DNA of 64,000 nt from Nitrosopumilaceae archaeon (GTDB lineage Archaea > Thermoproteota > Nitrososphaeria > Nitrososphaerales > Nitrosopumilaceae): NCBI GenBank assembly GCA_035631875.1, contig DASQHX010000009.1, forward strand, positions 301,281-365,280, written 5' to 3'. Shown here piece after piece: positions 6,538 to 11,724 of the stretch. The number at the start of each line of letters is the position of its first letter. Positions within the stretch are counted from its first letter, which is position 1. Both the position numbers and the translations under genes were made by a program. Below the pieces are notes generated by a model. That model made no database searches, had not been told where the DNA came from, and saw only the letters and a list, made by a program, of their open reading frames with translations.

Positions 6538-9195
6538 CTATCCTGATGTACAGCCGCTGTATCCACATTCTATACAGACATTACATCCTTCTGCAAAGAC
6601 CAAGTTGTTTTTGCATGTTGGACATAGTCTTTCTTCTATCTGTTCTTGGGTAAGTGGAACTTGTGGGGATTGTACTGATGTTTCTGGAATCTTTATCTGC
6701 AATGCTTTTTCGGTTTGTGCTTTTAGATATGGATTTGTGACATTTTTTGCAACATAATCTGTTACATACTGACTTGGAGTTACTTGGAATATTTTTTGTA
6801 CATTATCACCAGTCATATGTAAGACTTGTTCATGTCTCGAACCATCTCTATATATCGTGATTCCTTTGAGTCCAAGCTCATGTGCTATTAGATATGCTGC
6901 TTTGATATCTTCAGCAGTCACATCATATGGCATGTTAATTGTCTTTGCAATGGCATTTCCAATCCACTTTTGCCACACAGCTTGTGCCATAAGGTGATCA
7001 GCCCAGTGTATGTCCATTGCTGTAACAAATATTTTCTGCATCCATTCTGGAATTTCTGGAATTCCTTTCAGTGAACCATAGTTATTTGCGATTTTTTCTA
7101 GTATTTGATCGTTGTATAGTCCATGTTCTTTGAGAACTTCTTCAAAGATTTTGTTTGTGTAAAAGAATCTTCCAACAGTTACACGTTTTTCAAATGCTAA
7201 AGCAAACATTGGTTCCATTCCATTTGAGCAATCACCAATCATTGATAAAGTACCCGTAGGAGCTACTGTAGTTGTCAGTACGTTTCTAATACCATGCTTT
7301 TGGATCTTGCTAATTAATGCATCCCAATCATACGAGCGACCATTCTTTGGTTTTTCGTAATATCCTGCCACAGGTATTTTTCCTTCAGGAAATTCTGTTT
7401 TTTCACATAATGGAAATGCGCCTCGTGTTTTTGCCAAGGCTACACTTTCTTCCATGGAATAGTAAGTTAATGCTTCAGCAAGTTTTTCTTGGAATTCGTA
7501 ACCTTCTTGTGAATTATACGGAATTCGTAGCTTAAAGAGAAGATCTGCAACCCCCATGACACCAAGTCCAATTCTGCGTGAATCCTTTGATGCCTTATCG
7601 ATCTCAGGAATTGGATAATTGTTAACATCTATAACATTATCCAAGAATCTTGTTGTCTTTCGAATTGTCTCTTCATATCTTTGCCAATCAAATTCATATT
7701 GTCCATCAGCTTTTCGTTTAACATAGTTTGCCAGATTGATAGATCCCAGATTGCATGATTCATATGGATACAAACTTTGTTCTCCACAAGGATTTGTAGC
7801 TCGTATTGGTCCACCTCTAGCTTTTGCAAATACATTGTATTTGTTGATAAGATCAAAGAAGATTAGACCGGGTTCAGCACTTTTCCAAGCTGAAAGTGCA
7901 ATTAGATCAATTAGTTGGTGTGCATTTATTTCTCGTACTGGTGAGTTATCACGTGGACTTCGAAGAGTATATTTTCCATCTTTTGAATTTACAAGTGCAT
8001 CCCAGAAATCTTCCCATACCCCAACACTTACGTTAAAGTTTTCTAAAACGCCTGGTTTTGTTTTTGCAGTAACAAATTTTTCAATATCAGGATGCCATGA
8101 TTCGATAATTCCCATGTTTGCACCTCTTCGTTTCCCTCCTTGTTTAACAACTTCAGTTACTGTGTTTATAATATTCATAAATGACACAGGACCAGAGGCA
8201 ACGCCAGATGTAGATGCTACCATATCTCCTTCTTCTCTAAGATCAGAATAGTTGATGCCTACTCCTCCACCAGATTTGAAAATTAATGCTGCATCTGAAG
8301 ACGATTTCATTATTTTCTCCATATCATCAGGCATGGCAAGCACAAAGCAAGCTGAGAGCTGACCCAGTCTACCACCCGCATTCATCATAGTGGGAGAATT
8401 TGGTAGAAAGTCTTGTGAGACCATTAGATCATAATATTCTGAGATTCTCTCTGCATATTGATCAAATTTTCTTGCTGCAAGCATGGTAAGAAATTCTTTT
8501 ATGCCTACTTTCATCTGACCATGCTTGGCCAAGTCTGTGTAGTGAATGATTAATGACCTAAAATGCCATTTGTTAAGAAGATACTTGCCAATCTTGAATT
8601 TGTAATCAAAGTCATCGAGTTTATCAAGATATCGTGAAGCTTCCTCTATGTTTTGTGTATTTCCTCCTTCTACTGCAAATATGGTAGAATCCTTTAGTAG
8701 ATCTCCAATTCCAACCAAAATTGCTACTCGTTCAAACATCTCTCCTGGACTTTCAATTATTGTTCCCTTGTTATTGCGCATCAGGTATCGTGATGCCAAA
8801 ACTCTCAGGCAGTTAAGATCAAACTTCTTTGCTACACTATCAAGAGATTTGGAATCAAGAACCTTCATTTTTTCTTCTCGAAGTTTTCTTCGTTCGTGTC
8901 TGTAAAGTATATAGGCTTTGGCAATTTCACCAAGTCCTTCATCTATTAAAGTAGATTCAACCATATCTTGTACGTCTTCCACGCTTGGTGCACCAGTAGC
9001 AGAATAACCTTGATTAACAAGTTTCTCCATTACTCGATCTGCCAATTTATCAGCCAAGCTGTGTTCTGGTCTACCACAAGCAACTAAAGCCTTGTATACT
9101 GCGTTTGAAATTTTGTCCTTCTGGAAATTTAACACTCGACCGTCGCGTTTTTTTACTTCAATGATCGAGTTCTCTATTTGTGAAAAATCTGTCAA
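6538..9195 (-). CDS. nrdJ: Adenosylcobalamin-dependent (class II) ribonucleoside-diphosphate reductase
   Basis: 885 residues; reduces ribonucleotides to deoxyribonucleotides using a cobalamin-generated thiyl radical. The order is N-terminal ATP-cone (IIEVKKRDGRVLNFQKDKI..., residues 12-100), the reductase barrel with MNAGGRLGQLSACFVLAMP, GGGVGINYSDLR, NPCGEQ and TVAPTGTLSMIGDCSNG, and a C-terminal CPTC...CNVC-type cysteine segment for re-reduction. Start is TTG at 9195: no in-frame ATG lies upstream before a stop, and a GGGGAG stretch 5 bases upstream can serve as a ribosome site. A decayed second copy of its first 18 codons lies at 9361-9414. Confidence 0.95.
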   Translation of the reverse strand: MTDFSQIENSIIEVKKRDGRVLNFQKDKISNAVYKALVACGRPEHSLADKLADRVMEKLVNQGYSATGAPSVEDVQDMVESTLIDEGLGEIAKAYILYRHERRKLREEKMKVLDSKSLDSVAKKFDLNCLRVLASRYLMRNNKGTIIESPGEMFERVAILVGIGDLLKDSTIFAVEGGNTQNIEEASRYLDKLDDFDYKFKIGKYLLNKWHFRSLIIHYTDLAKHGQMKVGIKEFLTMLAARKFDQYAERISEYYDLMVSQDFLPNSPTMMNAGGRLGQLSACFVLAMPDDMEKIMKSSSDAALIFKSGGGVGINYSDLREEGDMVASTSGVASGPVSFMNIINTVTEVVKQGGKRRGANMGIIESWHPDIEKFVTAKTKPGVLENFNVSVGVWEDFWDALVNSKDGKYTLRSPRDNSPVREINAHQLIDLIALSAWKSAEPGLIFFDLINKYNVFAKARGGPIRATNPCGEQSLYPYESCNLGSINLANYVKRKADGQYEFDWQRYEETIRKTTRFLDNVIDVNNYPIPEIDKASKDSRRIGLGVMGVADLLFKLRIPYNSQEGYEFQEKLAEALTYYSMEESVALAKTRGAFPLCEKTEFPEGKIPVAGYYEKPKNGRSYDWDALISKIQKHGIRNVLTTTVAPTGTLSMIGDCSNGMEPMFALAFEKRVTVGRFFYTNKIFEEVLKEHGLYNDQILEKIANNYGSLKGIPEIPEWMQKIFVTAMDIHWADHLMAQAVWQKWIGNAIAKTINMPYDVTAEDIKAAYLIAHELGLKGITIYRDGSRHEQVLHMTGDNVQKIFQVTPSQYVTDYVAKNVTNPYLKAQTEKALQIKIPETSVQSPQVPLTQEQIEERLCPTCKNNLVFAEGCNVCIECGYSGCTSG

Positions 9196-9224: not shown

Positions 9225-9235
9225 GTTAAATAAAG
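9225..9235 (-). promoter_or_regulatory. Candidate TATA box for nrdJ
   Basis: On the minus strand CTTTATTTAAC, centred about 35 bases before the TTG start, which would leave a leader of roughly 9 bases containing the GGGGAG ribosome-site-like stretch at 9200-9205. Confidence 0.4.
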
Positions 9236-9320
9236 ATTGAGGCAAAAAATATTTTTCCAAAGATCGACTTTGGATCAACTTTATTGACACCATTACTATT
9301 TTCATAGTTTTAGATCTGTA

Positions 9321-9336
9321 TAGAACCCAAATAAAT
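9321..9336 (-). repeat. Direct repeat copy 1 in nrdJ spacer
   Basis: Plus-strand TAGAACCCAAATAAAT, identical to 9507-9522. Similarity continues on both sides (AGTTTTAGATC... before, TTCAA...GATC after). Lies 126 bases upstream of the nrdJ start. Confidence 0.75.
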
Positions 9337-9360
9337 CTTCAAGAAGATCCACATTCATAT

Positions 9361-9414
9361 ATCGCGTTTTTTAACTTCAATGATCGAATTTTCTATCTAT
9401 AAAAAATCTGTTAG
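9361..9414 (-). pseudogene. Decayed fragment of nrdJ 5' end (18 codons)
   Basis: Aligned with nrdJ codons 1-18 (9142-9195) without gaps, 45 of 54 bases match. It reads LTDFL*IENSIIEVKKRD: the start TTG became CTA, codon 6 CAA became TAG, and the match ends after KKRD, followed by a stop. Most remaining differences are synonymous, so the copy was probably coding when duplicated. Same strand as nrdJ and 219 bases upstream of the nrdJ start. Confidence 0.85.
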
Positions 9415-9473: not shown

Positions 9474-9506
9474 TAGTCTCCTGTAGCCCTAGTTTTTAGA
9501 TCGTCA

Positions 9507-9522
9507 TAGAACCCAAATAAAT
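9507..9522 (-). repeat. Direct repeat copy 2 in nrdJ spacer
   Basis: Identical 16 bases to 9321-9336. Lies 93 bases upstream of the decayed nrdJ start (9414), compared with 126 for copy 1 and the real start, which fits two diverged copies of the same promoter segment. Confidence 0.75.
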
Positions 9523-9630
9523 TTTCAAAAAATTGATCTAAATTTCAGGTAAATAAGATTATATTCTATAATTTTTTAAAAAATGTTATTCATAAATATT
9601 AATAAGATCTATTCAATGTTTAAGGAAATT

Positions 9631-11724
9631 TTAGGCAAGTATGTATGGTGATTTGCAAGTAGGACATTTGTCAGTAAGTTTTTCTTCCTTTAGGCCACAA
9701 TTACTACAAATATGCACCTTTCGTATTGGCCTGAATGAACTTACAAGTTCACTTGTTTTTTCTATAGCCTTTTTTATTATTGCTGCATCTGCGTTATCTG
9801 GGATTTTTAATTGTACTAGCAATCCACCATTAAGAGCTTTTGACATGTGATTAGCCTCAACAATTTTATCTGTTTTTAGATTCATTCCTTCTATTTCTGG
9901 AGCATTTAGTACTATTCCTTCAGAATATGATTCGCCTTCTACGTATTGGAGAACAGACATCTTACCATATTTTTCCCCATCCAAGGCTGAAAATCGTGCT
10001 GCCGCATCGCTTTCAGTCATAGATATGGTAACATTATCACCCATCTCTTTTCCTTTCTTGGTTGCTACTTCCATTGCTGTTGCTATAACTTTAGAGAATA
10101 TTTCTTGTCCAGCTTTGTTATTTTCATATCCAAGTATTCCAAACACTGCCTCCTTTAAGCCGATCAGATTAACTACTAAGGTAACTGAGCCCTTTTGCAT
10201 GTATTGGGTATTATTTGCAAGAATTGGATTAAGTCCGCGTCTAGTTAGATCTGATATTTCCTTCTTCCTAAGTGACATTGCTGCAAGTGCAGGCTTCATC
10301 AAGAGTGCAAGACGTGCTCTAAAGTATGTTTCATCTTTATTGGATTCAAATGCAAGTCTAGGCATATTAATTGAAAGTGACTGAAGGTTAATTGTAGTTC
10401 CAGTAGTTTTTGCATCTCCTCGTAAGATTCCTTTATTTGATACAATACCCTTTGAAAAGCTTACACGCCCTCCTAGTGCAATAATTTCAGAGAGTATATC
10501 GGAAAACTCGCTAACTTTGCCTTTTTCATAGTCTATTATAATACCAATTGAAGGAGTGGGTGTTGATTTTACATATTTTTTGTAACTTTCAAGTATTACA
10601 CCTATTAATTTTGAATCACTTCCAAGTGAGATTCTAAAGGAAGCAAGTGTACCATTTTTACTGTATCTTGGAGCAGTTGATGTTGCTGCAAATGCACTTG
10701 TAATCTTTTCTTCTACTTCACCAAGATTTTTTGAATATTTTTGCAAAATTGTTACTAATCCATCCATTATCACTTCCTGTGATGCTTCTCTAAACAATAA
10801 TGAAGTGAGTAACGATAATGATGTAGCAAGTTCATCTAATGTATTTATTGGAGGCACCCTAGTTACTCCAAGGAATTTTCCTCGAAGATCTATACCGTCT
10901 TCTAAGAGTTCTTTGATGTTTACAAATACTGTATCTGGTAAAAGTGACCATATTCCAGTATTTGTTATATGAATATCTCCTGAAAGATGTGAATCAGCAA
11001 CATCTTTTGGTAGTGTGTTTAGAACCAGATGTTCTCCAAAGACTGTTTGACCAGTCTTAAAGAGGAGACCCTCTACACCATTATGAATACCATCCACGTT
11101 TGTTATCATTTCATGAATGTCATATGCAGGAAGCCCAAACCTAGCAAGTTTATGCCTATAATCCTCATGTCCTTGCTCTAAAAGGACAGAATTTACCATT
11201 TCACGTATCAATGAGGCAGTAAGGTATGAAGTTTGGAATTTGTAGATACGGTTTTCTACCTCTTCAGTTATTTTTTGGGCAAGTTCAAGTGGAAGGCTAC
11301 CTTCACGTACAAGAGACTGGATTATCTTATGTGAGTTAAACTCCTCTATTGATTCATGTGAGGTTCTGACATACATCTTGCCACTCTCTATTATAGAGCG
11401 TTCTTCAATTTGTCTAGCAAGACTTAGGACTAGTTTTCCTAAATTTGTAATAGTGTAACGTCTTTCTGATTTATTCAGAGCCACTAGAGATTGTCTTAGT
11501 AGTTTTCTTAAGTGGTATGCAAATTTACCACTTTCTTTTTTTGATTTAAATCCAGCAAGAGATTTTAATTCTGAATAAGTAAGAGGTCCTTTTGAATTTA
11601 GGATACGTAAAATATCGATCCTGTTCGGGCTTGCCATTACCGAAAAGATCATTCTTACACGTTTTGATGCTGATTGTAAAATACCTCCTCGCTTTTGCTC
11701 ACCAAAGTCCTCACTCAGTTCCAT
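9631..11724 (-). CDS. HTH / ATP-cone / NrdD-like protein, catalytically dead; putative nucleotide-sensing regulator
   Basis: 697 residues in three parts. (1) Residues 20-110: ArsR-like winged helix (MASPNRIDILRILNSKGPLT, FAYHLRKLLRQSLV). (2) Residues 115-200: ATP-cone (YVRTSHESIEEFNSHKI...). (3) From about 205: class III RNR (NrdD)-like fold, with SHLSGDIHITNTG matching the NrdD GDIHxHDL block, ending in a zinc ribbon with Cys673, 676, 687 and 690. These four are the only cysteines, so the thiyl Cys and the NrdD N-C motif are absent, and no glycyl-radical RxxGY motif follows the zinc ribbon. It therefore cannot be a normal reductase. Position upstream of nrdJ suggests a regulator, comparable in logic to bacterial NrdR; that role is inference. 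ATG start at 11724. Confidence 0.75.
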   Translation of the reverse strand: MELSEDFGEQKRGGILQSASKRVRMIFSVMASPNRIDILRILNSKGPLTYSELKSLAGFKSKKESGKFAYHLRKLLRQSLVALNKSERRYTITNLGKLVLSLARQIEERSIIESGKMYVRTSHESIEEFNSHKIIQSLVREGSLPLELAQKITEEVENRIYKFQTSYLTASLIREMVNSVLLEQGHEDYRHKLARFGLPAYDIHEMITNVDGIHNGVEGLLFKTGQTVFGEHLVLNTLPKDVADSHLSGDIHITNTGIWSLLPDTVFVNIKELLEDGIDLRGKFLGVTRVPPINTLDELATSLSLLTSLLFREASQEVIMDGLVTILQKYSKNLGEVEEKITSAFAATSTAPRYSKNGTLASFRISLGSDSKLIGVILESYKKYVKSTPTPSIGIIIDYEKGKVSEFSDILSEIIALGGRVSFSKGIVSNKGILRGDAKTTGTTINLQSLSINMPRLAFESNKDETYFRARLALLMKPALAAMSLRKKEISDLTRRGLNPILANNTQYMQKGSVTLVVNLIGLKEAVFGILGYENNKAGQEIFSKVIATAMEVATKKGKEMGDNVTISMTESDAAARFSALDGEKYGKMSVLQYVEGESYSEGIVLNAPEIEGMNLKTDKIVEANHMSKALNGGLLVQLKIPDNADAAIIKKAIEKTSELVSSFRPIRKVHICSNCGLKEEKLTDKCPTCKSPYILA

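Follow-up and report, generated by a model that had tools for sequence, protein, structure and literature searches.

A catalytically dead ribonucleotide reductase most likely switches a ribonucleotide reductase gene on or off by nucleotide levels in ammonia-oxidising archaea and their relatives

Introduction

Ribonucleotide reductase (RNR) is the gatekeeper of DNA precursor supply. The closest described regulator of its transcription is the bacterial repressor NrdR, a protein of about 150 aa in which an N-terminal Zn ribbon is joined to an ATP-cone, and published accounts describe it as acting on DNA via the ATP/dATP occupancy of the ATP-cone (PMC9110341, PMC12176259). NrdR is described as rare in archaea, and RNR control in most archaea is thus presented as largely unknown (PMC9110341). 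Among the enzymes themselves, the nearest comparison is NrdD, the class III anaerobic RNR, for which the ATP-cone is reported to govern oligomer state and a HxHD motif to hold the substrate triphosphate (PMC11226230).

Here we analyse a gene carried on a 64,000-nucleotide stretch of DNA from a Nitrosopumilaceae archaeon (contig DASQHX010000009.1; this whole stretch is referred to as the window). An initial annotation had read its product as a dead reductase recruited to regulate the neighbouring nrdJ gene, and this proposal is supported by gene linkage, by the loss of catalytic motifs, by conservation of the winged helix and ATP-cone, by the absence of NrdR and by a common inverted repeat in the promoters. 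Our comparison goes beyond that proposal in two respects, in that class III nrdD, and not nrdJ alone, may be the target, and that the family, here called pseudo-NrdD, spans the phylum. The open-access literature yielded no description of such a family, subscription literature having been outside the search. For RNR control in globally abundant ammonia oxidisers, the analysis points to one concrete regulator together with its presumed target gene and a candidate operator.

Results

Domain architecture and fold

The pseudo-NrdD gene is present in a single copy in the window genome, and its product combines four parts.

9631-11724, minus strand: pseudo-NrdD regulator ORF, ATG start, 697 aa
11389-11667, minus strand: winged helix, residues 20-112 (DUF7347/HTH_20 over the Pfam gathering score)
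11161-11379, minus strand: ATP-cone, residues 116-188 (PF03477 profile match)
9745-11124, minus strand: NrdD-like core, residues 201-660 (PF13597; Foldseek match to class III RNRs)
9655-9708, minus strand: C-terminal Zn ribbon, Cys 673/676/687/690

The ArsR-like winged helix, ATP-cone, NrdD-like domain and C-terminal Zn ribbon named in the initial annotation were all recovered, through Pfam matches and the Zn-ribbon cysteines. The winged helix is matched by DUF7347 at residues 25-99 (E 2e-10, 41 bits against a cut-off of 27.6) and by HTH_20 at residues 29-81 (E 7e-8, 33 bits against a cut-off of 27), while the ATP-cone match to PF03477 (E 4e-9) and the NRDD match at residues 415-691 (E 2e-24) both lie over the Pfam gathering score. 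The NCBIfam equivalog model for NrdD, TIGR02487, scores the protein at 79 bits, far below its cut-off of 326. In the predicted structure the core is confident and has the class III RNR fold, its 36 best PDB chains by Foldseek all being NrdD (E 2e-19 to 2.5e-11). An active-site Cys or a glycyl radical, which would have spoken against the dead-reductase proposal, was not found. The winged helix is of low confidence in the structure model, and its assignment is based on the profile matches. For residues 1-204, AlphaFold gave a model of low quality (pLDDT 60) in which only the ATP-cone part had sensible matches, the nearest folds being NrdR and other RNR ATP-cones at weak E values (3e-3 or weaker).

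The KRDG position of the ATP-cone reads VRTS in pseudo-NrdD, and Arg120, Glu127 and Phe129 are invariant. We considered whether the altered KRDG signifies lost nucleotide binding and found the change not to be decisive; a VRTSSG-type ATP-cone start is also carried by some genuine NrdD of the Thermoproteota, and for this reason the ATP-cone of pseudo-NrdD is still compatible with nucleotide binding. Median identity to the window protein across Nitrososphaeria is 73% for the winged helix, 67% for the ATP-cone and 31% for the core. At the level of sequence, the winged helix and ATP-cone are far better conserved than the core, which is the opposite of what would be expected for an active catalyst. 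The closest named relatives are found in thaumarchaeal MAGs (95-99% identity), followed by Ca. Nitrosotalea-type genomes (82-87%).

Some loci depart from this architecture. Locus L073 (4018-6096, minus strand), from genus g9 of the window's family, encodes a member that has no Zn ribbon but retains the other three domains as well as the linkage to nrdJ, and pseudo-NrdD matches in several other g9 genomes likewise stop at residue 668-673. At locus L081 (genome G088) a frameshift or in-frame stop breaks the regulator gene, the 3' end of which is tandemly repeated in three copies in the spacer.

Loss of catalytic residues

Family members from Nitrososphaeria (56) and from other Thermoproteota (40) were aligned with 6 genuine NrdD of the same genomes. 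For the latter forty we use the working label Bathyarchaeia-like, which denotes non-Nitrososphaeria Thermoproteota members and is not based on taxonomy. Two positions in the window protein were assigned from this alignment.

10429-10431, minus strand: Gly432, aligned with the active-site CC position of genuine NrdD
10960-10971, minus strand: former HxHD substrate motif, now His-Ile-Thr-Asn, residues 252-255 (alignment with genuine NrdD)

The active-site CC, HxHD and RxxGY are each present in 6/6 genuine NrdD. The CC pair is kept by none of the 96 family members; Nitrososphaeria members have Gly at the active-site position in 55 of 56 cases and Ala in the other, and among the other Thermoproteota members (n=40) a Cys occurs at the second CC position in two and at the first in one. 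An intact HxHD is likewise found in 0/56 Nitrososphaeria and 0/40 other Thermoproteota members, and RxxG[YF] after the Zn ribbon in 0/96. In the window protein there is no RxxGY loop because the chain stops seven residues past the Zn ribbon, and Cys is limited to residues 673, 676, 687 and 690, all within that ribbon; the earlier statements that the only four cysteines are the Zn ones and that RxxGY is absent therefore hold on the 697-aa sequence. A few Bathyarchaeia-like members (L251, L265) retain a partial RVYG or RIYG, and L251, the one of the two that was aligned at the active site, has no Cys pair. On these alignments catalysis is excluded across the family, the thiyl Cys, the glycyl-radical loop and HxHD all being lost. 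No NrdG activase scores over the cut-off in the window genome (TIGR02495 model; best match 52 bits against 131), and an NrdG2-type activase is over the cut-off in each of six Bathyarchaeia-like genomes with a genuine NrdD.

Genomic linkage to RNR genes

The gene that follows pseudo-NrdD in the window encodes an RNR of a different class.

6538-9195, minus strand: nrdJ, the presumed target; class II RNR of 885 aa that has an ATP-cone of its own (TIGR02504, 738.6 bits, over the cut-off)

This nrdJ begins 435 bp downstream of the pseudo-NrdD gene on the same strand. The linkage to nrdJ that the initial annotation proposed to look for in other thaumarchaeal genomes is borne out, with pseudo-NrdD located directly upstream of nrdJ on the same strand in 43/47 sampled genera of the order; in two of the four genera without it the loci are cut by contig ends. 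The nrdJ gene is convergent in three f18 genera, and no NrdJ was found within the fetched stretch in families f16, f19 and f20. Could the adjacency simply reflect general synteny? The other window neighbours (thiolase-like, OB-fold-like and nitrilase-like genes) are kept in 16/17 same-family loci and in 0-1/21 loci outside families f1/f3, whereas nrdJ is kept in 21/21 of the latter, and general synteny was rejected on this basis.

The linked NrdJ proteins fall into several deep types, with identities to the window NrdJ of 62%, about 45% and 27-30%. Because these types lie beside the same regulator, the RNR gene was swapped in place while the regulator stayed. All profiled linked NrdJ types are B12-dependent RNRs. 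Such in-place replacement of the regulator-linked class II RNR gene by other NrdJ types occurred several times, at L096, L103, L098, L090 and other loci.

In five Bathyarchaeia-like loci (L241, L243, L244, L261 and L267) the regulator is followed by a genuine nrdD, which belongs to another RNR class; the same holds for a sixth locus, L263, which has a broken reading frame, and at L234 the downstream gene is nrdJ. No RNR neighbour is found for pseudo-NrdD in 33/40 Bathyarchaeia-like stretches. Between the pseudo-reductase and nrdD in L241, L261 and L267 lies a small glutaredoxin-like (NrdH-like) ORF with TSGCxRC, which suggests that it is the reductant of these class III RNRs.

Distribution of the family and of NrdR

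The family was searched within the Thermoproteota, in genomes that are mostly MAGs. Pseudo-NrdD is present in 275/300 sampled Nitrososphaeria genomes, making it near-universal in the class, and family profile matches occur in 237/300 Thermoproteota genomes, the weak ones of which may include genuine RNRs. The NrdR model TIGR00244 has no match over the cut-off in any of the 44 Nitrososphaeria genomes checked or in the window genome, and it does not match the pseudo-NrdD protein; an explanation through NrdR was rejected. NrdR is over the cut-off in 4/36 non-Nitrososphaeria genomes, all of family f23, where it lies directly upstream of nrdD and the pseudo-reductase is located elsewhere than beside nrdD. 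Within f23, an NrdR-like ORF directly upstream of nrdD is seen at loci L294-L297 and L310 (genomes G461, G495, G536, G396 and G300); these ORFs score over the NrdR cut-off in all four genomes searched and represent NrdR in archaea other than haloarchaea.

Candidate operator in RNR promoters

The spacer between pseudo-NrdD and nrdJ in the window contains the following elements.

9273-9289, minus strand: candidate nrdJ operator, TGTCAA-TAAAG-TTGATC (sequence motif in the promoter)
9226-9234, minus strand: probable nrdJ TATA box TTTATTTAA, inferred from a high-information block in aligned spacers
9257-9273, no strand assigned: second palindrome, CCAAAG-N5-CTTTGG, adjoining the candidate operator
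9295-9308, no strand assigned: third palindrome, ACTAT-GAAA-ATAGT; its conserved form across the family is CTATGA-N3-TCATAG

RNR promoters share a common inverted repeat with the consensus TTGTCAA-N6-TTGACAA, of which N5 variants are found in the window's family, and the candidate operator of the window lies upstream of the probable TATA box. The palindromes at 9257-9273 and 9295-9308 flank the candidate operator and are possibly extra binding sites. Of 54 non-redundant spacers taken from the window's family, 40 carry the pattern TGTnAA-N3-6-TT[GT]A, against 2.1 in shuffles (maximum 7), a count to be taken as footprint evidence because these spacers are related. In an unbiased ranking over 23 regulator-to-RNR spacers from other families, nrdD included, TGTCAA is the top hexamer (15 against 3.5 expected), with a score equalled by no hexamer in 400 shuffled sets. 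When one spacer per family is used, TGTCAA ranks second and the top score is not significant (P 0.16). The motif is present in 11/17 nrdJ-linked spacers against 2.8 expected and in 4/6 Bathyarchaeia-like nrdD spacers (7 sites against 1.1 expected, P < 0.001; this P value and the one for f18 below are guides only, because part of the sequences had been seen before the patterns were fixed), L243 and L244 having a pair of TGTCAA half-sites in the nrdD promoter.

Does the site depend on adjacency to the regulator gene? In f18, where nrdJ is convergent and its promoter distant from the regulator gene, the motif is present in 3/3 nrdJ promoters (P 0.002), L106 having a perfect TTGTCAA-CAGCTT-TTGACAA, and the unlinked f20 nrdJ promoters carry a variant, TGTnAA-N5/6-TTTAC, just upstream of the TATA box in 4/4. 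Homologues unlinked to nrdJ and without DNA binding would speak against the regulator first proposed; the non-adjacent f18 and f20 cases instead have a putative site in the nrdJ promoter. The motif was found in 0/6 nrdJ promoters of genomes without the pseudo-NrdD protein, shows no enrichment at the remaining unlinked RNR genes, those of Bathyarchaeia-like genomes (2/30 against 4.4 expected), and is not clearly enriched in family f3 (2/8). When the window genome was searched for the 16-base motif with one mismatch allowed, 49 matches were obtained, compared with 37 for the reversed control, so that the motif alone does not define a regulon.

The spacer also holds a decayed copy of the nrdJ 5' end (9118-9192 and 9337-9411, 75 nt, 76% identical), and an upstream 38-nt piece is duplicated (9308-9345 and 9494-9531, 87% identical). 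These decayed duplications probably account for the unusual length of the 435-bp spacer.

Discussion

How would a reductase that has lost catalysis act on the gene of a living one? We consider it probable that the pseudo-reductase is a nucleotide-sensing transcription regulator of RNR genes that works via the inverted repeat in their promoters. The architecture, the disappearance of three features needed for catalysis or substrate binding, the phylum-wide distribution, the linkage to RNR genes irrespective of class and the common promoter motif are computed, and it is DNA binding, ligand or nucleotide binding and the sign of regulation that we infer. A dimer of the regulator would bind the promoter inverted repeat through its N-terminal winged helices, and the nucleotide pool would be read by the ATP-cone, perhaps also by remnants of other reductase nucleotide sites. 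Nucleotide occupancy would then change the shape or oligomer of the regulator and hence its grip on DNA, such that RNR transcription would be set by the nucleotide pool. Repression at high dATP, by analogy with NrdR, is the simplest guess and only moderately more likely than activation, which has to be kept in view because in some families the site adjoins the TATA box, whereas in others it is found about 40 bp upstream. A bolder version, which we advance tentatively and lean slightly against, is that a class III RNR was converted whole into a sensor of the dNTP pool that controls whichever RNR class is present, in a large part of an archaeal phylum and without any involvement of bacterial NrdR, with the ATP-cone, and possibly remnants of the specificity site at the dimer interface and of the emptied active site, reading dNTP balance.

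An alternative hypothesis is that the protein is an allosteric subunit acting on the NrdJ or NrdD protein, in which the winged helix would serve dimerisation or protein interaction. A partner protein would be consistent with the gene adjacency and the RNR-like body, and the ATP-cone is described as an activity regulator in RNRs (PMC11226230). However, the same protein lies beside NrdJ types that are ~30% identical and beside class III NrdD, which is hard to reconcile with a specific partner; moreover, the helix-turn-helix is its most conserved part, the promoters have a motif in common, and the window NrdJ has an ATP-cone of its own, and we regard such a subunit as unlikely.

It is likewise improbable, in our judgement, that the protein is a DNA-binding regulator whose main targets lie elsewhere (e.g. 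replication or cell-cycle genes), RNR being an incidental or autoregulated neighbour and the TGTCAA repeat belonging to another factor. Against this stand the linkage to RNR genes of more than one class, which persisted when the RNR gene was replaced, and the occurrence of the site at nrdJ genes that are convergent or unlinked in genomes encoding the protein, although many Bathyarchaeia-like members are unlinked to RNR, their RNR promoters are without the motif, and motif-like sites are common in the genome. Hardly credible is an active but unusual reductase with a different radical site, for while the class III fold, Zn site and core are retained, the window protein has no Cys outside the Zn site, no glycyl loop and no HxHD, the window genome has no NrdG over the cut-off, and the cells keep NrdJ. 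If the nucleotide-sensing regulator is correct, an essential enzyme fold without catalysis became a gene switch for its own pathway, and that switch was kept while the enzyme it controlled was swapped between and within classes.

Among known systems, pseudo-NrdD is best read as a non-homologous archaeal counterpart of NrdR. In both, a DNA-binding domain is joined to an ATP-cone, a Zn ribbon is present, the gene lies beside RNR genes, the RNR class of the target is immaterial, and conserved sites are found in RNR promoters, here a TGTCAA-N5/6-TT-type repeat. The two differ in that the DNA-binding domain of NrdR is its N-terminal Zn ribbon, whereas pseudo-NrdD has a winged helix and additionally carries an entire, catalytically dead class III RNR body, about 460 aa long; it also has no TIGR00244 match and another candidate site, and its hosts are mostly archaea without NrdR. 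With NrdD (PF13597, TIGR02487) it shares the fold, the position of the ATP-cone and the C-terminal Zn site, but it is without the active-site CC, the glycyl-radical loop and HxHD and has gained a winged helix. That N-terminal domain is like those of ArsR-like winged-helix regulators (HTH_20, DUF7347), from which pseudo-NrdD differs in having no visible metal-binding ArsR architecture and in its fusion to an ATP-cone and pseudo-reductase. BirA, PutA and NadR are enzymes that double as transcription regulators of their own pathway, and they resemble the present case in that the body of a metabolic enzyme controls the transcription of its own pathway. Those enzymes have kept catalysis, however, whereas pseudo-NrdD is catalytically dead and the functional RNR may belong to another class.
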